Below are positions 2,725 through 23,099 of a stretch of DNA of 27,539 bases, piece by piece. Under the pieces are notes generated by a model. It was given only the letters and a program-made list of their open reading frames with translations. It had not been told where the DNA came from and searched no databases. This DNA comes from Leucogyrophana mollusca. Its lineage: Eukaryota > Basidiomycota > Agaricomycetes > Boletales. Where the stretch lies: positions 1 through 27,539 of the forward strand of contig MU266642.1 in assembly GCA_021014945.1 (NCBI GenBank), given 5' to 3'. A program made the translations under genes and the position numbers. Positions within the stretch are counted from its first letter, which is position 1. Each line of letters starts with the position of its first letter.

Positions 2725-4621
2725 TCAGATGGACACAGGCGCCAGCTCGTAGTCGCAGGTATCTGGGTGACGGCGCAGCCGCTGCACAACTTCGCTCGCG
2801 TTGGGACGAGACGCCGGGTCCGTTTCCCGGCATTTCTCGATCAACTCCCAGATCGCATCATCGAGCTCGGTGCAGGCTGGTCGAAGTAGCTTGAGATTTC
2901 GCATGATAGCCATCATTGGGGGAAACTCGGAGAATGGCGGCCGACCAGCATAAATCTGGTACAGTGACGGCGTGAGCGACAGCAAAAAATGAATGGAATG
3001 AAGTTGAACGCGACCTCATAGCCCACACAGCCAAACGCATAGATATCACTAGCACAACTCTTCTGTCTCCGTTCAGGGTTGATGTGGTCGAACAACTCGG
3101 GGGCCATCCACGGGGTGGATCCTTGTCCATTTGAAGTGGCAGTCACAGTGAAGTGGATATTTGAGTCCTCTGCTATAATTGACAAACCAAAGTCGGCAAT
3201 ACAAGCCCTGAGGCCTGATGTAATGAGAATGTTTACCTGTAAGTGTGTATCAGTAACAGTGGGCTGGTCATGCTCGGAGTCCACATACACCTTTCAAGTC
3301 ACCGTGGATCACCGGGGGGGAGAACGAGTGGAGATATTCAAGCCCAAGCGCGATGTCTAACATCTGCCACATAGATCATTACAGTGTCATGCTAACGGCA
3401 CAGCCGACCCACGAACCAGCTGTAGTCGACTCGCTTTTGGGTTTTCTTGAAGGTATTGAGGAAGGCTTCCGTTATCCATCCATGGTGATACGAGGCACGC
3501 TCGAGGGGAGGACTCATTCGTACAGTGCACGCCACAGAATGGTAACACATATGGGCTGGAGAACTGAGCCCACAGAACCGCTTCTTTTGAGTATGCCTGT
3601 GACATCAAAGTCAATCAGGGCGAAGCAAGTGATTAAATGCGGCAAGCCTTCATTAGTGCCTGGACATCACGGGAGCCAAAAACTCGCATTTTCTTGACAG
3701 CGACAGCGCGTCCATCGAGATCGCCTTTCCAGACGTCTCCAAAGGTTCCGCCATCGACTTGATCGCCTCGGATATTGATGTTCGGGAGGATCAGACGTTG
3801 AGGATAAAGCCCAGATCTCTTGGATAGCTCGACTAGTATTTTGACCAAGAACGAACGAACGTTATCGAGATCGAAGGAATCAAGAAGCTGTGTCGAGAAC
3901 GTCAGGTGAAAATAAACATATTACGAGTTGAAGGCTCTTATATGGCTTATACTTTCTGGATGAGGTCGAGCAGCGATTGGGCTAGCGGACCTTTTTGACC
4001 CAGGAGCAGCATTCGGCGTTGCGGCTCCTTGAGCATCAGCAGCATCCGAGCGACTATGGACAGCGCGTCCAGCTTCAAGATCTTATCAACAATTGCTGAA
4101 TCGTTCAGTTGGAACCCCTGTGTTTCGTATGAATTAGATTTTCCTTTTGGAGTATTTGCTCTCAACTCGCCATTTCGTGTTGAGTGAGATAGTGACCCAG
4201 GGTGGCCATGATGGATTCGTGGTTGATGAGTTGGGTGATTTCATCAACGTTGTTGGTCCACTCGATGTACTTCGCCTTCAAACTCTCCACGTCGCTAAGT
4301 GATGTAAGTCGGGAATACACTCCAGCAAGCTAAGGCCATATGAGTGACACACCTAGGCGCATAACATTCCAACAATTCCAGAGTGTACATGAAGAAACGC
4401 TGCAATTCTCGGTTAGAGATCGGTCCGCTTCAAGAAAATAACGGGTTCACTGGATATATCAAGTCGACCTCCACACGCGCGTTTCCATGGATTGATGGGA
4501 CTTGCAAAATCTGCGAGCTGTTCGCACGAAGCCAATCGCTTGGAGCCTCTGCTAGCGACACAGAGATTTGTGGGCTGCTGAGTGTGTTACAAAACTGAGA
4601 GATTGTCTGGACTGTGGATGG
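2725..4621 (-). other. TKL-type protein kinase module A
   Basis: Kinase signatures in exon order: glycine loop [10 protein letters not shown] (~residues 840-849 of the chimera), catalytic lysine in AVAVKK (K859), conserved Glu in SKEAVLW, catalytic loop HGDLKGVNIL (Asp956), DFG in IADFGLS (D974), WMAPELF, then [11 protein letters not shown] and the C-lobe ending ELAPVSI. HGD in place of HRD is usual in expanded basidiomycete TKL kinases. All essential residues are present, so activity is plausible. An accessory helical region precedes the kinase ([45 protein letters not shown]). Two introns seem to use GC donors (ATG/GCGAGT at 4170; AAG/GCTTGC at 3647). Confidence 0.88.
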
Positions 4622-6715
4622 CTACAAGTTGAAAGAGTGTTATCCTCACGAAAGCCAGCAAGAGCAGGGTGCGCACATCGAGAACCGAGGGCGCTGCGCG
4701 GCTCAAACTCAACTCGGCCTCCATCGCACTGATGGTCTTCTCATATTCCTCAATCACAGGTCCCACGATTTCTTCATATTTCGCTGTCCCGCCCACGGAG
4801 CCACCCGATGACGACTCCCGGCGCCGCTCGCCAAGCTCACGCCGCAGCCTCGCAAGTTCCTCCGTCCGGTCAACGTACTTCTCTCTCAAGTTCTCGTAGT
4901 TATTCTGCAGGTCCGTCATCTGCGCAATTATCTTCTTCGACACGCTTTCCGAAGGTTCGTTGGGGATGGGGGTGGAAATAGATTTAGATCCGGAGGCGAC
5001 GATCGGGCCTCCCTCTTTGAGTTGCTTCATTTCCTTCCTCAGCTGCGTGACATAACCCTGCAACCATTTGACATCGTCCCACCCGTCTTCCTTTTCGTTC
5101 AGGATCGCGTGGTTCTTGATATTCCTTGCGCGATTCGCGTATTTGAGCGTGTTGACAGTCTCACCGACGCTCCACTCGGTCGGGCTGACACAGGCAATCA
5201 TGAGGGTGTGCGCATTACCTCCAAGGGAATCTTGTAGGAGTCGCGTAAGCCTGGAGTCCCGGTACGGGATGTGTGTAGCAGTGTGCGACCCGGCACGAGA
5301 AGGATCGCCCAAGGCAGATAGTACATTGCCCAGGGCCAGTAGACCGCGGTCAACCGAAATACCTTCCCCGATGCGCTCACCAGCGGCGGCTGTCCGTTTC
5401 AACTATAGTATAGTGAGAGCAAGCCGTACGCCCTGAAAGGAAATGACACTCACGCGTTCAGACCCAGCAAGGTCGACGAAGTGGAATTTAGAAACAATCG
5501 TGACCCACTCTCCGGAATCTTCATCATCAGGGCGATTATCAGGGGGACGCAGCCCAAGAGAACTAGAGAATCGCAGTCCGCCGCCCCTTCCCATGGCTGC
5601 TGTGACACCCCTTCCCATGGCTGCTGCGGCGCCCCTTCCCGTTGCTGCTGCGGCGCCCCTTCCCGTTGCTGCTGTGACGCCCCTTCCCATTGCTGCTGTG
5701 AAACTAGGCGCGGCGGATCGCCCAAAAGTAGGAGAGGTAATTTGTATGCTGCCCGAGCCTGAGCCAGGTCTAGCGAGACGCGACGGTGAGCGGTCGGCCG
5801 GCAGAAGGGGCGAGGGCGGGCGAGGCGATGGACCTGACCCGTTGTACGTCCTCTGTGCGAGTGTCAAAGAAAAGATGGTGTGCGAGCGAGATGACTGGGC
5901 ATTCATGTCTGTCTCGTTTGTTCTCCTAACAGATATGCCCTGGCGAATGAGACTGCAAGATGGTGAGACTTTCCGTAGGCTCTAGACGCAGATGATGCAC
6001 TCACCTCATGACCTCGTTGCTGTTCCGCACCGATACCTCCCGCAGACCTCTCCATATTATCGATCCATCCTCACCTTGTCTAATTTGAACTTCTCGCCTT
6101 GCCTCAGTTGCCTCATCCGTGCGTATGAGGTCAACTAGGTCCTCGTTGTTCACCTCGATAAAGGATCCCTTGATACTGTAACTCCAGCTCCCACCGCGTT
6201 CCTCCTTGAGTTTCTTCGCCTGCGAGAAGATGGTAGACACAGCCCGCGGGATGATGCCCGCGCCATTATTTGGGTCAGACAAGTTGGCATCTAGATCTAC
6301 ACCGGTCATGGTGAAAGTTTTCCCGCTGCTTGTCTGGCCATAAGCAAGTATTGTACAGTTGAATCCTTCCACGAAACGCGAGATTAGAGGTTCGGCAGTG
6401 CTTCTAAATAGGGCATACTGGGTGGTTGAGGGTGGATGGACTTGGTCGAAGGTGAAGACCTGCTTTTTCCCGGTTCCAGCGGCAGGGGCGGTGACTGCGG
6501 TTGCAGAGCCTGACGCACTCGAGACGTCGATCACCACAGTAGTGGGAGATGTCCTATGTACTACTTGCCGTTGAAAACGAGCAGGAATTGAAACAGCGTC
6601 CTGTGAGGTCCCAGGCCGGATCCGCACGGCTACAATGTAGAAGGAAATTTCCCTCAAATGTTTATACCGCCAGATGGTTCCAGTACTGACCGACTTGCAC
6701 AGACGTCGTCGCCAT
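2725..6715 (-). CDS. Predicted kinesin-TKL kinase chimeric gene
   Basis: A 14-exon minus-strand model: 6691-6715, 6005-6629, 5454-5952, 4677-5402, 4451-4621, 4353-4399, 4171-4294, 3953-4117, 3648-3887, 3417-3596, 3289-3363, 3015-3236, 2725-2955 (the first four are kinesin; 13 segments listed, with the initiator exon only 25 bases). The lengths total 3330 bases, 1109 codons plus stop, with every phase matching. The N-terminal ~615 residues are a kinesin motor and the start of its coiled coil; the C-terminal ~480 are the kinase module also found in gene C. The join uses a 55-base intron (4622-4676) whose donor and body resemble the linker intron of gene E (25828-25882). If that intron is not spliced, the kinesin would end at a stop at 4587 (654 aa) and the kinase would be a separate gene without a clear start. 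A chimera is the better reading because phases agree, but RNA evidence is needed to settle it. Confidence 0.6.
4677..6715 (-). other. Kinesin motor and short coiled-coil module
   Basis: The protein starts [14 protein letters not shown]; a 25-base first exon supplies MATTSVQV and a 61-base intron (6630-6690) follows. The P-loop GQTSSGKT is at residues ~106-113, switch I NAQSSRSH at ~234-241, and switch II DLAGSER at ~377-383. The motor ends near [16 protein letters not shown] at ~483. A coiled coil rich in E, K, R and L runs to ~615. Motifs such as [10 protein letters not shown] and [14 protein letters not shown] fit the kinesin-4 (KIF4/KIF21-like) group of plus-end microtubule motors. A low-complexity G/R/A/T/M insert of about 100 residues sits between the SRSH strand and DLAGSER. 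Family members are usually far longer, so the stalk and tail appear lost at about position 4690. Confidence 0.9.
5584..5706 (-). repeat. 24-base minisatellite inside the kinesin exon
   Basis: About five imperfect copies of a 24-base unit, plus-strand form ccccttcccatggctgctgt plus four bases. On the coding strand each gives eight residues of the type MGRGVTAA or TGRGAAAA. Because the unit is a multiple of three, copy-number change keeps the frame. It lies in the insert between switch I and switch II of the motor. Confidence 0.85.
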
Positions 6716-6893
6716 TGACGGCAATGGCGATGACAATGGGGCCATCGCGTTTGAAGAAGAATCCTTCTGCTTGAGTCGGAGGGGTGTCGTGGAGTTGTAC
6801 AGGGTTCGACTGGTCCGGGGTGCCGTGGGGCATTGGTGCCGAGGCGTAGTAACTCCCTACTCTAAGCCGATTAATTTGGTCACCGGGGGTCAC
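6654..6893 (-). other. Overlapping upstream ORF at the kinesin start
   Basis: A 79-codon ORF in another frame starts at 6893, crosses the kinesin ATG at 6715 and stops at 6654. An in-frame ATG at about 6834 gives a shorter form. It has no recognisable domain. If the mRNA starts upstream of it, it would act as an overlapping uORF and lower kinesin translation. It may equally be chance, because the transcription start is unknown. Confidence 0.3.
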
Positions 6894-6899
6894 ACGGAC

Positions 6900-7549
6900 A
6901 CAGAAACACGTCTAACATAGGGCTGTATTTACCCCAACTTGAACATGACTTACATGGGATGCAAAAAAGAAGATGTAGAGTATTGGTGGATCGTGACCGA
7001 GAAAGCAGTCCATGTTCGCTTCTACTACGTCTATGGCTAACCCACTGGCGCTGATTATTTTCCAGGTCCTCTAGCCGTTCCAATCATGGCTGTTACATAC
7101 GGCCATGAGTTACCACTCCAGACGATCCGTTAGTCGGCCGCCCTCAGGAGTTCGCTGGCATTACTGGGGATAGAGGTGACCCCTGAGTGGGGGATGATGT
7201 TTGCTGTCTGCTACTCCGTAAGTTTTTCGGCTCAGTTTCGAGCGGGGGACGCAAATACCCACGATTGCGTAGCTTTTACAATGTCTGCTTTCATGCTGTG
7301 TCTACTTCTCGTTCGTGAATTCCATCTCAGGGCGATGTTCGGCGTTCCTCTGACCCAATACTGCCCGAGTGGATCTCGATTCTCGACCGACACTTGCTAT
7401 CAAATGGGTAGCTCTCACCTGATGTTACCAGCGCTGCTGTCTTTGGGCTCGGGCACAGAGCATGGTGAGTCTAACTCATAAATTAATACCACTGCGTGGC
7501 GGTTACATGTAGAACTGTGATAGCCCAGGCGAATTCTTCGCTAAAGGAT
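6900..7549. other. Intergenic region upstream of the kinesin
   Basis: No gene recognised. Short ORFs on both strands lack domains. A piece at about 7366-7425 (cgacacttgctatcaaatgg and following) resembles 11055-11105, so worn duplicated DNA is present here too. The proximal part presumably holds the kinesin promoter; no clear TATA element was found. Confidence 0.4.
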
Positions 7550-8043: not shown

Positions 8044-10090
8044 CTACTGCGAGCGCCTGTGCCTCCACCACTGAACGCACTCCAAGAAACAAAAGGCATC
8101 CAAGCACCCCCTGTCCTCGTAGTGTGACTCCGCATCATCATCTTCAGGCTCTGAGTCCGAGTGTGAGCTGCCCCGGACACCGCCGTGCTGCGCTCGGGCA
8201 CGAAAGCGTCGGCCTGCTCTACCCCTGGGAGGGGCGATAGCCAGTCGCTGCGTAGAGACTACTGTTAGATCAAACACGGTTTGATGGGGATAAGACGCAT
8301 ACCACATCAGCTTGCCCGAGCGCTACGTCGGCCTCGATCTGGTTGCTTGACGGCCGTGTTCGGGAACGGGAAACTCGTGTGTTTTCTTGTGCGTCTGCAT
8401 CTCTTTCTCGACGTGCTTGTTGATTAGTCGGCAACTAGGAAGCATGAGTAGATGTAAAAAAACTGGGACCTTTACTCCCGAAACTCACCTCTGGAGAGGT
8501 CGGAGCATCGGTGCGTTCGTCTTGAGGAGGATCTGATGCACCAGCTGGAATGTCTGTGGGGACGCGAGGTGTGCGTTGCCGGATACCCCGCCAGCGTTCA
8601 CGGATGTTGCGTGACCATTTGTGACCATGTTTGGCCGGCCGAACAGGTGCTGTTTCTTGCTCGAGCGGAGGATCCTGCTGAGGTTTAAAGGCACGCGAAT
8701 GAGAGGACGCCACGCAGAAAAGCTCGATGAAAACGTACGAGGCGCGGGCTTATCGACTCGGTGTCCCAGTCGTCATCGACACTCGGCTTCCTTTCTTGCG
8801 TGGCAGGCGGTTGCTGCACGGCGGCGGGAAGCTACGCATAACGCGGGGAATCAGTTCCGAGGTACGCAGAATACAAAAACGCAGGCCCACATCAAGTAGC
8901 GAGGAGTTTATTGAAGACGTATTGTTCTGCAACTTGGCGCGGGTTTGCCTGTGCTGGCGGAGGGGCGTAATTGATTGTGTGATAGGTGACTAGTGTAAAC
9001 GCGGAATGTTGGCGGGCAAAAGGGCACATACACGCGCAGAATGCCTACCGGTGGGTTTTGGTTGCGAGGGGTAGGCGGGGAAGACTGAGGTAGAGAGTTA
9101 GAGGCAGTATTGAAGCAGAATGAAGATACTCACCGAGTCTTGGGTTGCGAATGATTCTGTGTCGAATAAGTACACCGCGCCGTCCATTCCGCCGCCGATG
9201 ACGTATCGACCGTCGGGGGAGAATGCCACACAAAGTACCCTGGCGTCCACGTCGAATGAATCTCCAACCTGCAGCCGCGTCTCCAAGTCCCAAACCCGGA
9301 CTGTATAATCGTCTCCTCCACTGGCAATTCTTCGTCCGTCGACGGTAATCGAAATGCAGTTGATATCGTCTTCGTGCCCCAGCATTGGCTTCCCTACTTC
9401 TACTCCTGTTTTGGAATCCCACGCGCGGATGATTTTATCGAACGACCTGGTGACGAGGAGACGTCCATCCGGTGAATACACAACCGACGACACTTTCCCC
9501 GTGTGACCTTTGATGGGACCGACGACGCTCTTTCCAGTGAATATATCAATCACCTGGAACGACCCATCCAATAACCCAACAGCAATCCGCGACCCGTCCG
9601 GTGAGAACGCCACACACCAGACGTCGCCGTCACATCTCAGCGGTTCCCTGCCAGATCTGCCAGTGTCCGTGTCCCACAGCCGTATTCCCCGCTCATCTGA
9701 CTTTGGCGCAGTTACGATCCAACGGCCATCCGGGGAATAGGCCAGCCTCCAAACGCCGTCTCCTTTGAATTCACCAACCACTTTTCGCGTCTGTGCATCC
9801 CAAATCACCATCCCGCCCACTCGCAGCCCGCTCGCAATTCTCCTGCCATCCGGAGATATGGCCAACCACTCGACACTGGAATCATGTTGAAGCGGTTGCC
9901 CGTCTTGCCTACCATTCTCGACATCCCAAATAATGACCGTCTTGTCATCAGATCCACTTGCAATATGCCGACCGTCCGGGAAATACGCAACGGACCTGAC
10001 CCAATTGGTGTGCCCCTTGAAAACCCTCGTCGGACGGCGGGACGTACAACGCGCGGCGGAAGACTCGATGGAGCTTGTTGATGGTGACAT
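8044..10090 (-). CDS. WD40 propeller-linker-cysteine tail protein B
   Basis: Six exons: 9134-10090, 8891-8989, 8739-8813, 8489-8677, 8306-8434, 8044-8247, totalling 1653 bases (550 aa), all joined in phase 0. Exon 1 encodes a complete seven-unit propeller (units ending VIIWD, MVIWD, IRLWD, FQVID, IRAWD, VRVWD, VYLFD). The linker holds SSINSSLLD, an acidic DDDWDTES stretch, and one copy of a ~60-residue basic/proline repeat (KWSRNIRERW ... RVPTDIP ... TSPE). The last exon gives an R-rich segment, a Ser/Asp/Glu run (SDSEPEDDDAES), then GCLDAFCFLECV and WWRHRRSQ. The three spaced cysteines beside aromatic residues might be lipid-modified or membrane-associated; that is inference. The first intron is 144 bases, the same as in gene D. 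Confidence 0.82.
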
Positions 10091-10182
10091 GGCGCGAGGC
10101 GACGAGAGTGATGGGTGGGGGTTAGTAAAGGTATTTGAGGCGACGTTGAGGGAGAATGGCGAGATGTGGGGCCGTCACTTCA

Positions 10183-14837: not shown

Positions 14838-16573
14838 GGATATATCAAATCGACCTCCACACGCTCTTTTCCATGGATTGATGGGACTTGCAAAATCTGC
14901 GAGCTGTTCGCACGAAGCCAATCATTTGGAGCCTCCGCCAGCGACACAGAGAATTGTGGGTTGCTGAGTGCGCCACAAAAACGGGAGATTGCTTGATGGG
15001 GGCTGTCCAGGAGGTCCGCCGAGACGCGAGATTGGCGATACCGGATATGTTGCCGGCGTGCACGGACCTCGGGCCTGCGTGGGGATTTACCACTGGACGC
15101 GGCGGGCTGAACAGTCGATGTTTCTTGGTGGTGTGGAGGATCCCGCTGAGGTTCGGTAAGTCGCTTAAAGGGCACACAAGTGAGAGGATACCACGCAGAA
15201 GATCTTGACGGAAACTTACAAGGCGCCGGTGGATCGACTCGGCGCTGTGAGGCCGCTTCTTGTTCGGACGCCGGTTCCCTGACTCGAGCACCACGAGAGG
15301 CTAATTCACCATTGAAGTTGAGCTTTGTTCGTCGAGAGGAATAACGGCAACAGAAGGGTGAACTTACATCGAGTATCGAGTCAAACGAAGAGCCACAAGA
15401 ATATTCGGCCTCGGGGGGGTTCTCCATAAGCCATTGCGGTTCGAGGAGTTCGGGGTCGATGAGGGTAGGGGCACGTGCACGATCTCGGGCCTGGGCTAAG
15501 TTGTCAGGGTAGAAGGATGCATACACGCGGAAAATGCCTACCGGTGGGTTTTGGTCACTAGCGGGAGGCGGGGAAGACTGATGACTGGAGATTTAGAAGC
15601 GGGGTTGAAGCAGAATGAAGATACTCACTGAGCGTCCCATGTCGAATAAGCACACGTCGCGCCTGTTGCCACCGACGACGATATATCGGCCATTGGGGGA
15701 GAATGCTACAGAATATACTCCGTAGTAAGGCACGTCGGGTGAATGTTCAACCTGCAGCCGTGTCTCCAAATCCCAAACCCGGACATGCGGTCCTCCGCCG
15801 CTCGCAATTCTTCGTCCGTCGGCGCTAATCGAAATGGAGTAGACGTCAGCCCCGTGCCCCAGCATCGGCTTCCCTACTTCTACTCCCGTTTTGGAATACC
15901 ACACCCGGATGCTTTGATCCAATGACGCAGTGACAAGGAGGTGTCCGTCCGGCGAATACACAATCGACGACACTCTCTGCGTGTGGCCTTTGATGGGACC
16001 GACAACACTCTCGCCAGTCGAGATATTTATCGCCTGGAAATATCCATCTTCTAACCCAACAGCAATTCGCGACCCGTCTGGTGAGAATGCCACACACCAG
16101 ACGCCGCCGCCGCATTGCAGCGGCTCTCTGCCAGGTCTACCAGTGCTCGCGTCCCACAACTGTACCGCCCCCTCATTGATAGCTGTTGGCGCAGTTGCAA
16201 TCCAGCGTCCATCTGGGGAATAGGCCAGTTTCCAAACTCCACCTCCTTTGAATTCATGAACCACTTCCCGCGTCAGCGCATCCCAAATCACCATCCCCCC
16301 CACTCGCAGCCCACTCGCAATTCTCCTGCCATCCGGAGATATGGCTATCCACATGACGCCGACATCGTGCCGAAGCGGTTGCCCGTCCTGCCTACCGCTA
16401 TCGGCGTCCCAAATGATGACGGTTTTGTCGTCGGACGCGCTCGCAATATATCGTCCGTGCGGGAAATATGCAACGGACTGGACCCAATCGGTGTGCCCCT
16501 GGAAAACCCTCGCCGGAAAGTGGAGCGCACAATGCATGGCTGGAGACTCAATGGAGTTCGATGACGTCGACAT
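13091..16573 (-). CDS. WD40 propeller-linker-TKL kinase protein C
   Basis: Twelve exons: 15625-16573, 15368-15537, 15220-15300, 14837-15163, 14740-14786, 14558-14681, 14340-14504, 14038-14277, 13807-13986, 13679-13753, 13408-13626, 13091-13348. They total 2835 bases, 944 aa, with all phases consistent and no internal stop. Residues 1-316 form a seven-unit propeller, 317-509 a linker that includes FRVYASFYPDN, SSFDSILD and one worn basic/proline repeat, and ~665-930 a TKL kinase. The start at 16573 was chosen over an in-frame ATG at 16660 because A, B and D start here and the extra codons overlap the promoter block. The kinase could instead be a separate gene, but no start fits and the linker exon reads straight into its accessory region. 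Confidence 0.72.
15625..16573 (-). other. Seven-unit WD40 propeller exon of gene C
   Basis: Units end in VIIWD, MVIWD, VQLWD, FQAIN, IRVWY, VRVWD and VCLFD, with inner strands such as AISPDGRRIASG and VAFSPDGSRIAVG. Seven units match a closed propeller. The fourth unit lacks the WD pair in every paralogue. The exon ends at two overlapping donors, GTGAGT (phase 0) and GTATCT (phase 1); only the second keeps the following exon in frame in this gene. Confidence 0.9.
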
Positions 16574-16670
16574 GGCGCGAGGAGACAGGATTAATGGGTG
16601 GGGGGTTGGTGAAGGTGTTCGAGGCCACGTTGAGGGACGATGATGAGGTGCGGGACACACACACTACTTC

Positions 16671-20591: not shown

Positions 20592-22872
20592 CTACCGCGA
20601 GTGTGAGTGCCTCCACCACCTAAAGCACTCTAGGAAACAGAAGGCATCCAAGCACCCCGTGTTCTCGTAGTAAGACTCCGCATCACCATCTTCGGGCTCC
20701 GAGTCCGAGTCGTCGTTCCTGGCAGCTCTACGTCGTTCTCGGGCACGCCAGCGCCGTCGTTCGTTGATGTCTCTAGGGGGTGCTGCATATAGTCGCTACG
20801 GGGAGCTCACATTTAGATCAAATACAGGTCGATAGCAATTGGGATGCATGCCTCATCAAGCTTTCCGAGCGCAACGTTGGCCTCTTTCTGTTTTCTGGAC
20901 GACCGTGTTCGGGGGTGGGGATCTTGGGTATTGTTTTGTGTGTCTGCGGCCCATTCTTGACGCGCTTCTCGATCTGTCGGCAACTAGATAGCATGGGTAG
21001 ATATCAAATTAAATGTGAGCTTCCCTCCCGAAACTTACCTCTGGAGAGATGGGAGTATTGGGGCGTTCATGGAGGGCTAGGGGTAGATGTACGGGACTGT
21101 TCTGGAGGTCCGCCGGGACGCGAGATGTGCGAGCTCGGATACGCCTCCAGCAGTCACGGATTGCGCGTGACCATGGATGACCAGGTACAGAAGGCTGAGC
21201 GATCGATGTTACGCCTGTTTGTGGGTCGGTCGGCAACTAGTATGTATACATATGAACCAATCGGTATAGTCGACGGAAAGCTTTCCTACTGAAACTTACC
21301 TCCGGGGAGACAGTAACTATGGGCTGGTCGTCTGGAGGGGGATGTGATGGTCCATCTGGGATGTCTGTGGGGACGCGTGATTCGCAGGGTCGCAGGCGTT
21401 CACGGATGTTGTGTGACCATTTGGGACCAGGCTTAGCCGGCCGAAGGGGCGATATTTCTCGCTCGAGTTGAGGATCCCGCTGCACAGCAATGAGACTATA
21501 CTGCACAGGAAGGATCGACGAGCACTTACGAAATGCGGGCGTATGGACTCGGTGTCCCAGTCGTCGTCGTCACTCAGTTTTGTCTCCTGTAGGCGCCGGA
21601 TGGCGGGCGGTTGCTGCACTACGGCGGGAAGCTAGTTACAACACAGGGAATCGGTTTCGAGGTACGTGAAATAAGAAAGCGCGAACTCACATCAAGTAGC
21701 GAGGAGTTTATTGAAGAAATGACATTCTTCGGCTTGCCACAGGCTTTTCGCTGCTGTCGGATAGATGCCTGATGTAAACACGGGACGTTAGCGGGCAGAA
21801 GGACACATACACGCAAAAAATGCCTGCAGGTAGAATTCGGGTGCTAACAGTAAGTGGGGAAGACTGAGGTGGACATTTAGAAGCAGCATTGAAGCAGAAT
21901 GAAAATACTCACTGGGCCTTGGGTCTCGAATGATTCTGTGTCCCACAAGCACACCGTGCCGAGCTTTCCGCCGCTGATGATGCATCGTCCGTTGGGCGAC
22001 AATGCGACAGAAGGTACCCAGCCATGTGCGTCGAATGAATCTCCAACCTGCAATCGGGTCTCCAAATCCCAAACCCGCACTGTTTCATCGTCCGAGTCAC
22101 CTCCACTTGCAATCCTTCGTCCATCTGCGCTAATTGAAAGGCAGTTCACCTCATCCTTGTGCCCCAGCATCGGCTTGCCGAACTCAACTCCTGTTTTGGA
22201 ATCCCAGACGCGGATACTCTTGTCACGTGACCCGGTGATGAGGAAACGACCGTCCGCGGAATACACAACCGAGTTAACCATAGTCTTGTGGCATTTTATG
22301 GGACCGACGACACTCTCTCCGGTGGCGATATCAATCACCTCGAAAGAGCCATCGCGAAAGCCAATAGCAATCCGCGACACGTCCGGCGAGAACACCATGG
22401 AATAGACGTCACCGTCACATCTCAGCGGATCTCTGCCAGGTTTGCCAGTATCCGCATCCCACAACTGTACTACTCTCTCATCAGCCGTTGGCGCAATTGC
22501 TATCCAGTGTCCATCCGGGGAATAGGTCAGCATCCATACTCCATCTCCTTTGATCTCGTGAACCATTTCCCGTGTCAGCACATCCCAGATGACCACCCCC
22601 TTGTGCATTCCACTCGCAATTCTCCTACCATTCGGAGATATCGCTATCCACCTGACGCTGGAATCATGGTGAAGCGGTTGCCCGTCTTGTCTGCCACTTT
22701 CAACATCCCAGATGATGACGGTTTTGTCGCTGGATCCACTTGCTATACACCGACCATCCGGGAAATACACCACAGAGTTGACCGATTTGGTGTGTCCTTT
22801 GAAAACTTTCGTGGGACGGCAGAGCGCACGACGCATTCCTGAAGCCTTGATGGGGTTCGATGATGTCAACAT
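20592..22872 (-). CDS. WD40 propeller-linker-cysteine tail protein D
   Basis: Seven exons: 21913-22872, 21691-21768, 21530-21613, 21300-21479, 21039-21236, 20852-20983, 20592-20795, totalling 1836 bases (611 aa), all phase 0. A full seven-unit propeller (VIIWD, VVIWD, VQLWD, FEVID, IRVWD, VRVWD, VCLWD) is followed by SSINSSLLD, DDDDWDTES, and two successive copies of the ~60-residue repeat (KWSHNIRERL ... RVPTDIP ... VSPE, and PWSRAIRDCW ... RVPADLQ ... ISPE), against one copy in gene B. The tail reads SDSEPEDGDAES, GCLDAFCFLECF, then RWWRHSHSR. The donor after exon 6 is GAG/GCATGC, a GC donor where gene B has GTATGC. The start at 22872 is preferred to the in-frame ATG at 23064 because of paralogue alignment and the promoter block between them. 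Confidence 0.8.
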
Positions 22873-22967
22873 GGCACGAGGAGACGAAAGTGACGGGTAG
22901 GGGGTTAGTGAAGGTGTTCGAGGCGACGCTGAGGGAGGATGGTGGGGTGCGGGACGCAGTTGTTTTC

Positions 22968-23010
22968 GGCCCCCTTTTATGCCCTCTATACATGCTGTGA
23001 GCATGCTGTG
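22968..23010 (-). promoter_or_regulatory. Conserved upstream block of WD40 gene D
   Basis: About 96-140 bases upstream of the start. The minus strand reads CACAGCATGCTCACAGCATG, TATAGAGGG, then CATAAAAGG, the best TATA-like match among the four copies. To its right, homology with the other copies fades by about 23100, and no Rpt2 relic is found here. Confidence 0.5.
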
Positions 23011-23099
23011 TACCTGCTGTTCGAAGATCTCCCGCGTTTGGCGAGCACTTGATGTGTTCGGCACGCGGGCCTAGGACATGGGCGTCTCGCCTTCGTTAA

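Follow-up and report, generated by a model that had tools for sequence, protein, structure and literature searches.

Results

A kinesin motor joined in frame to a TKL kinase

The window analyzed here is the entire contig C316 (GenBank MU266642.1; 27,539 nucleotides) of the 32.3-Mb, 545-contig assembly of the wood-decaying basidiomycete Leucogyrophana mollusca (Boletales; GCA_021014945.1); it holds a tandem array of WD40 and WD40::TKL kinase genes and, on the minus strand between 6745 and 2725, a 13-exon gene in which a kinesin motor runs in frame into a TKL-type kinase. The spliced model contains 1,120 codons including the stop (1,119 residues) and no internal stop; begun at the ATG at 6715 it contains 1,110 codons including the stop (1,109 residues), so that the stop-free total of 1,110 given by a first-pass annotation of this DNA holds from that start with the terminal codon counted. 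Pfam placed Kinesin (2.7e-93) and PK_Tyr_Ser-Thr (PF07714, 1.1e-36) in the same translation, which together with the spliced model confirms the in-frame fusion claimed in that annotation, and found no NACHT or NB-ARC domain in it. The kinesin::TKL gene is thus present in the DNA, where two overlapping contigs of the assembly both carry it, and the intron at the join is one that the kinase family conserves.

By blastn, the homology to a kinesin gene on contig C13 and that to the nearest kinase copy, L011, meet flush (Table 1), and direct reading of the alignment shows that the joined frame is the frame of both parents. In most other kinase copies the main block of homology begins near 4605, with shorter blocks ahead of it. 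At the other end of the insert, homology to the WD40/TKL cluster extends to 7010 and that to C13 starts at 7008-6976 with a block of 33 bases that matches weakly (E 2e-5). The flush position of the junction between two independent homologies disfavors a join by chance.

The joining intron (GTGCGCAC..ACTTGTAG) is in phase 0. GT and AG stand at its borders in 11 of 14 paralogs by a scripted count, which includes L016, where the exon preceding the donor differs; L021 has the acceptor only, and gene C, a WD40::TKL gene of the array, and L015 have neither. Two NCBI models, P0121 (SMLN/LPSIQQ) and P0122 (SVPD/PPAVQQ), splice at homologous sites as compared by eye, and the 55-base intron with usable borders described earlier is borne out. 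The codon preceding exon 5 in the unspliced reading is an in-frame TAG, so the full kinase module requires the splice, and the first methionine of the module is its residue 61. These features bear on whether the locus holds two genes, a truncated 664-residue kinesin whose frame enters the intron and ends at 4587 and a separate kinase gene. The kinesin frame is indeed open to that point, and NCBI lists a partial kinase model on contig C336, but a kinesin of 664 residues would have fitted the length limits of our search and none appeared among the best 120 matches, the module offers no methionine before residue 61 and is closed by the TAG just ahead of it, and the borders of the joining intron are conserved in the family; we regard two genes as very unlikely.

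Bases 1-5255 of C336 repeat window positions 5255-1; the 4,031 and 640 bases compared were all identical (the 584 bases between them lay outside the comparison), and the repeat looks like a contig-end overlap left unmerged by the assembler. The junction lies inside this repeat, near the contig end, as might be expected had two copies, one of a kinesin and one of a kinase, been fused by the assembler. Against such an error, the divergence of the kinesin copy from C13, its sole close match in the genome search, amounts to 9-12%; the C13 kinesin tail is single-copy in the assembly over the 3,071 bases queried (C13:214471-215962, the 1.5 kb adjoining the break, lay outside the query); an in-frame join of exons onto a conserved family intron would be a rare outcome; and a similar flush chimera occurs on contig C113. 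We consider an assembly error very improbable.

Table 1. Positions of the exons of the fusion gene and of associated features in the window
Feature	Position	Strand	Description
Exon 1	6745-6691	-	Kinesin; start ATG
Exon 2	6629-6005	-	Kinesin
Exons 1 and 2	6745-6005	-	P-loop GQTSSGKT; exon borders match C13
Exon 3	5952-5454	-	Kinesin
Exon 4	5402-4677	-	Kinesin; final 15 bases are kinase-family sequence
Exons 3 and 4	5952-4677	-	Switch I SSRSH, switch II DLAGSE, neck, start of coiled coil
Exon 5	4621-4451	-	TKL module
Exon 6	4399-4353	-	TKL module
Exon 7	4294-4171	-	TKL module
Exon 8	4117-3953	-	TKL module
Exon 9	3887-3648	-	TKL module
Exons 5 to 9	4621-3648	-	N-terminal region of TKL module, then start of kinase domain
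Exon 10	3596-3417	-	TKL kinase domain
Exon 11	3363-3289	-	TKL kinase domain
Exon 12	3236-3015	-	TKL kinase domain
Exon 13	2955-2725	-	TKL kinase domain
Exons 10 to 13	3596-2725	-	Remaining kinase domain; PK_Tyr_Ser-Thr is residues 847-1103 of fusion
Kinesin-derived insert	7008-4693	-	Copied from the front of the kinesin-4/21/27 gene at C13:215963-217967: exons 1-4 and a short 5' flank
Junction	4693/4691	-	Kinesin homology stops at 4693, TKL-family (L011) homology starts at 4691; both frames agree
Joining intron	4676-4622	-	55 bases; homologous to TKL-family intron
Stop of kinesin frame	4589-4587	-	Reached only with joining intron retained; product 664 residues
Paralogous kinase module, gene C	14991-13116	-	86% identity to kinase of fusion
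WD40 half, gene C	16663-15593	-	Pfam WD40 3e-52; usual N-terminal partner of module

Origin of the two halves

The only close match to the kinesin half in the genome search was C13:215963-217967, with 87.6% identity over window positions 6765-5678, 91.4% over 5608-4693, and 85% overall. Intron positions match between the two genes, and the C13 gene continues into a long coiled-coil-like frame that is missing from the fusion, as the earlier description of an "amputated" coiled coil had anticipated. By best matches, rather than by a family tree, the motor is closest to kinesin-4/21/27: its best relatives in the PDB include KIF7 and KIF4, and the JGI name "kinesin family protein 4/21/27" occurs among the matches. 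The P-loop, switch I, and switch II nucleotide-binding motifs are all kept in its translation. Heptad stretches at residues 501-528 and 549-583 were reached by 1 and 3 of 1,000 shuffles, respectively; a further stretch at residue 603 was not distinct (531 of 1,000). Two other differences from C13 were seen: some 190 bases ahead of the kinesin ATG, within window 6766-6975, have no C13 counterpart, and a repeat in a motor loop (about 5600-5700, minus strand) is expanded by 96 bases.

Elsewhere in the genome the kinase half recurs in 14 full-length copies, 83-88% identical to it; C336 carries an identical one, and several others are shorter or more distant. The module is that of gene C, as had been proposed. 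Its best solved relatives are TNNI3K, CTR1, RIPK3, and MLKL, and it carries the motifs VAVKK, HGDLK, DFG, and APE, the Arg of HRD being replaced by Gly; we assign the domain, from its sequence, to the TKL type. L011 is its sister (support 0.98), and the two have in common a 15-base gap beside the join. Two introns of the kinase part are of the GC-AG class (3647-3597 and 4170-4118, minus strand); 13 of the 14 paralogs have GC at the donor of the first, and at the donor of the second 4 have GC and 10 have GT. A relative whose model has no WD40 half, P0248, shares the N-terminal region of the module.

The kinase appears constrained. After removal of columns with gaps or X and trimming of L023 and L024 to 1,440 bases, pairwise omega (dN/dS, the ratio of nonsynonymous to synonymous divergence) was 0.23 to L011 (dN 0.072, dS 0.318) and 0.26-0.41 to the other 13 copies. 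At columns that are otherwise invariant, the window copy has 3 private amino acid changes and the other 14 copies have 4-10, a count that the close sister lowers. One stop near the C terminus was found in each of L016, L018, L023, and L024.

Selection on the motor half

Between the kinesin half and C13, dN is 0.064-0.071 and dS 0.17-0.21, and the amino acid changes are unevenly shared. Polarized with 13 fungal outgroup proteins picked from 120 matches, after columns with fewer than 8 of the 13 were dropped, 55 changes fell on the window branch, 6 on the C13 branch, and 9 were unclear; branch omega was about 0.7 for the window (0.5-0.7, depending on the synonymous share) versus 0.08 for C13. 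At columns at least 95% conserved among 120 kinesins (those with fewer than 80 of the 120 proteins having been dropped), the window alters 10 of 168 and keeps 158, whereas C13 alters none of the 168. The altered columns include N411D and N471S, at both of which Asn is present in 120 of 120 kinesins; N411 would correspond to the Asn of the switch II helix at which a substitution in human KIF5A is pathogenic. Thus, of the earlier statement that all catalytic motifs are present, the P-loop, the switches, and the kinase Lys, Asp, DFG, and APE stand, but 10 of 168 near-invariant motor columns are changed and HGD takes the place of HRD. As judged from these substitutions, the motor half is strongly relaxed since its split from its long-tailed relative.

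The reading frame of the motor has nevertheless been kept. No stop occurs over 1.9 kb of coding sequence (P 0.013-0.023 under neutral drift; 0.0095-0.077 over a range of 150 to 80 substitutions), nonsynonymous changes fall below the neutral expectation (P 0.04 at equal synonymous share), and the coding sequence has three internal indels, of 12, 15, and 96 bases, each a multiple of three, a further 1-base alignment gap being the trimmed end of the query; the splice sites are intact. The absence of stops, the deficit of nonsynonymous changes, and the in-frame indels together indicate a motor that is relaxed but whose frame is maintained.

Other fronts on the same kinase module

WD40 was found in the fetched upstream flank of 11 of the 14 paralogs (L021 through L034), and other fronts occur. 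On C397, the NCBI model P0122 joins a C2H2 zinc finger to the TKL module at L017, a join at the level of the model. On C113 (L018/L038, C113:29598-30830, minus strand) the front is a Sin3 copy with a PAH1 domain (Pfam 1.8e-16) and without the PAH2 part; as to the Sin3 label, Pfam confirmed PAH only. There the Sin3 copy ends at 29598 and module homology starts at 29597, a frame open from the ATG at 30830 enters the module without a stop, and a further Sin3 copy directly downstream is the likely parent. With kinesin, Sin3 PAH, and WD40 fronts in the DNA and a C2H2 front by NCBI model, a recurrent signaling module is joined to several host domains, as would be expected of an integrated-decoy receptor, and, given its Sin3 PAH1 and C2H2 fronts, it acts like an output domain whose front can be swapped.

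Two further candidates were rejected. The neighbor of L019 on C62, presumably LST8-like, was considered as the front of another intact chimera, but the fragment looks broken; and a mobile element with fixed ends was set aside because 3' homology among the copies stops at many differing places.

Separately, the DNA upstream of L017 has further matches at the beginnings of several other contigs. The array in the window includes four WD40 proteins (1-825, 9098-10174, 15593-16663, and 21877-23070, minus strand). A TKL kinase comes after the WD40 protein at 15593-16663, the one at 1-825 probably runs into the kinase on C336, and different repeated stretches follow the remaining ones, so that the array looks like an assortment of front and back halves in varying combinations.

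Discussion

We suggest, with somewhat more confidence than doubt, that the gene is a chimera in which the promoter and motor of a kinesin replaced the promoter and WD40 half of a TKL unit and that it is spliced into a 1,119-residue protein. A copied piece of a kinesin-4/21/27 gene, recognizable by its homology and carrying the motor exons with the flank on the promoter side, would have taken over the promoter and WD40 half of one unit of the array; the kinesin exon continues without a change of frame through the final 15 bases of a TKL-family exon and then meets the family's own intron. One pre-mRNA would issue from the kinesin-derived start and be spliced across 4676/4622, and the TKL kinase would be paired through the retained neck and first coiled coil, with the kinesin head directing it to microtubules or acting as bait. 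The kinase, as the working output, would stay constrained, and the head would drift since good motor function would no longer be needed. The product is, on this evidence, probably a dimerized, microtubule-directed or decoy-like TKL kinase. Given the strongly relaxed constraint, the motor possibly no longer walks, and motor activity is doubtful; the first-pass description of a motor carrying its own kinase therefore survives as regards the fusion in the DNA and less securely as regards the motor.

Several observations weigh against the chimera being a spliced, working gene. The omega of the window motor branch is near neutral, and at positions at least 90% conserved there are 34 window-specific changes and none specific to C13; some of the constraint on the motor frame may predate the fusion; at codons identical in all other kinase copies, the private changes of the window are 1 nonsynonymous and 0 synonymous, a count too small to judge by; the junction lies 563 bases within the unmerged 5,255-base overlap; the fused protein is absent from the best 120 matches of both the kinesin and the module searches, whose length limits would have admitted it; and the sole model listed on C336 is a partial kinase of 292 residues. 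Kinase-only NCBI models also exist for copies with WD40 upstream (P0243, P0247, and P0250) and so say little on the fusion, and we set the NCBI gene models aside as evidence against it.

The relaxation of the motor is what would be expected if the join, although real, were a by-product of rearrangement, the kinesin half an incipient pseudogene, and any useful product a shorter kinase from an internal start. The contrast in omega with the C13 branch, the loss of near-invariant motor columns, the broken look of the comparable C62 neighbor, and the internal-Met starts of several of the NCBI family models inspected are in keeping with such decay. It is harder to reconcile with an undamaged motor frame, retained splice sites, and indels in multiples of three; a kinase-only frame would be blocked by the TAG before exon 5 and begin at module residue 61, and the kinase-only models of WD40-linked copies carry little weight here too. 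We consider decay unlikely, yet a serious contender.

More speculative, and rather improbable, is the proposal that the family serves surveillance: the TKL output module would, again and again, capture copies of the fronts of conserved host proteins (kinesin-4, Sin3, zinc finger) as baits or docking sites and report tampering with microtubule, chromatin, and other machinery, the kinesin fusion being a decoy motor.

If the chimeric gene is expressed, it would provide a germline kinesin with its own TKL kinase. One module with unrelated host-gene fronts in a single genome offers, moreover, a tractable case of new multidomain signaling proteins in formation. Titles and opening lines of abstracts on kinesins with a kinase domain yielded no natural case, and one may exist in the 105-architecture tables of PMC2867816, which were not in readable form; in the main text of that paper, as available, the word kinase does not occur, and the domain pairs discussed in the accessible part of PMC11096116 are others than kinesin-kinase.

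The fusion can be compared with several known systems. The WD40::TKL genes of this genome (gene C and P0121) share its kinase module and its array, and the joining intron recurs in P0121, but their front is WD40 rather than kinesin and gene C has neither border of that intron. With kinesin-4/21/27 proteins (KIF4, KIF7, and KIF21) and C13 it shares the motor, neck, and first coiled coil, and with C13 the exon borders, whereas it has a kinase instead of the long coiled-coil tail and several near-invariant residues are altered. Myosin III likewise combines a cytoskeletal motor with a protein kinase domain but, according to the portion of PMC3942036 available, the motor is an actin motor, the kinase is N-terminal, and the proteins are nonhomologous. 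Plant NLRs with integrated domains (PMC4759884, in part) set many unrelated domains on one signaling core, and fungal NLRs, among which WD40 prevails in basidiomycetes, exchange end domains on such a core (PMC4986451, in part); the fusion differs in its Pfam composition, with no NACHT or NB-ARC, and the likeness is one of domain arrangement.

The layout also resembles that of the KIF5B-RET fusions of human tumors, in which, in the available part of PMC7230609, a kinesin motor and coiled coil similarly precede a kinase domain. The coiled coils of such fusion partners are held to dimerize and activate the kinase, and a kinesin front can thus serve an activated kinase (same source). Those fusions are somatic and unite a kinesin-1 with a receptor tyrosine kinase, whereas the present gene is germline and unites a kinesin-4 whose motor is diverging with a TKL kinase; if expressed, it would be a natural counterpart of them and a test of the use of a kinesin head to a kinase.

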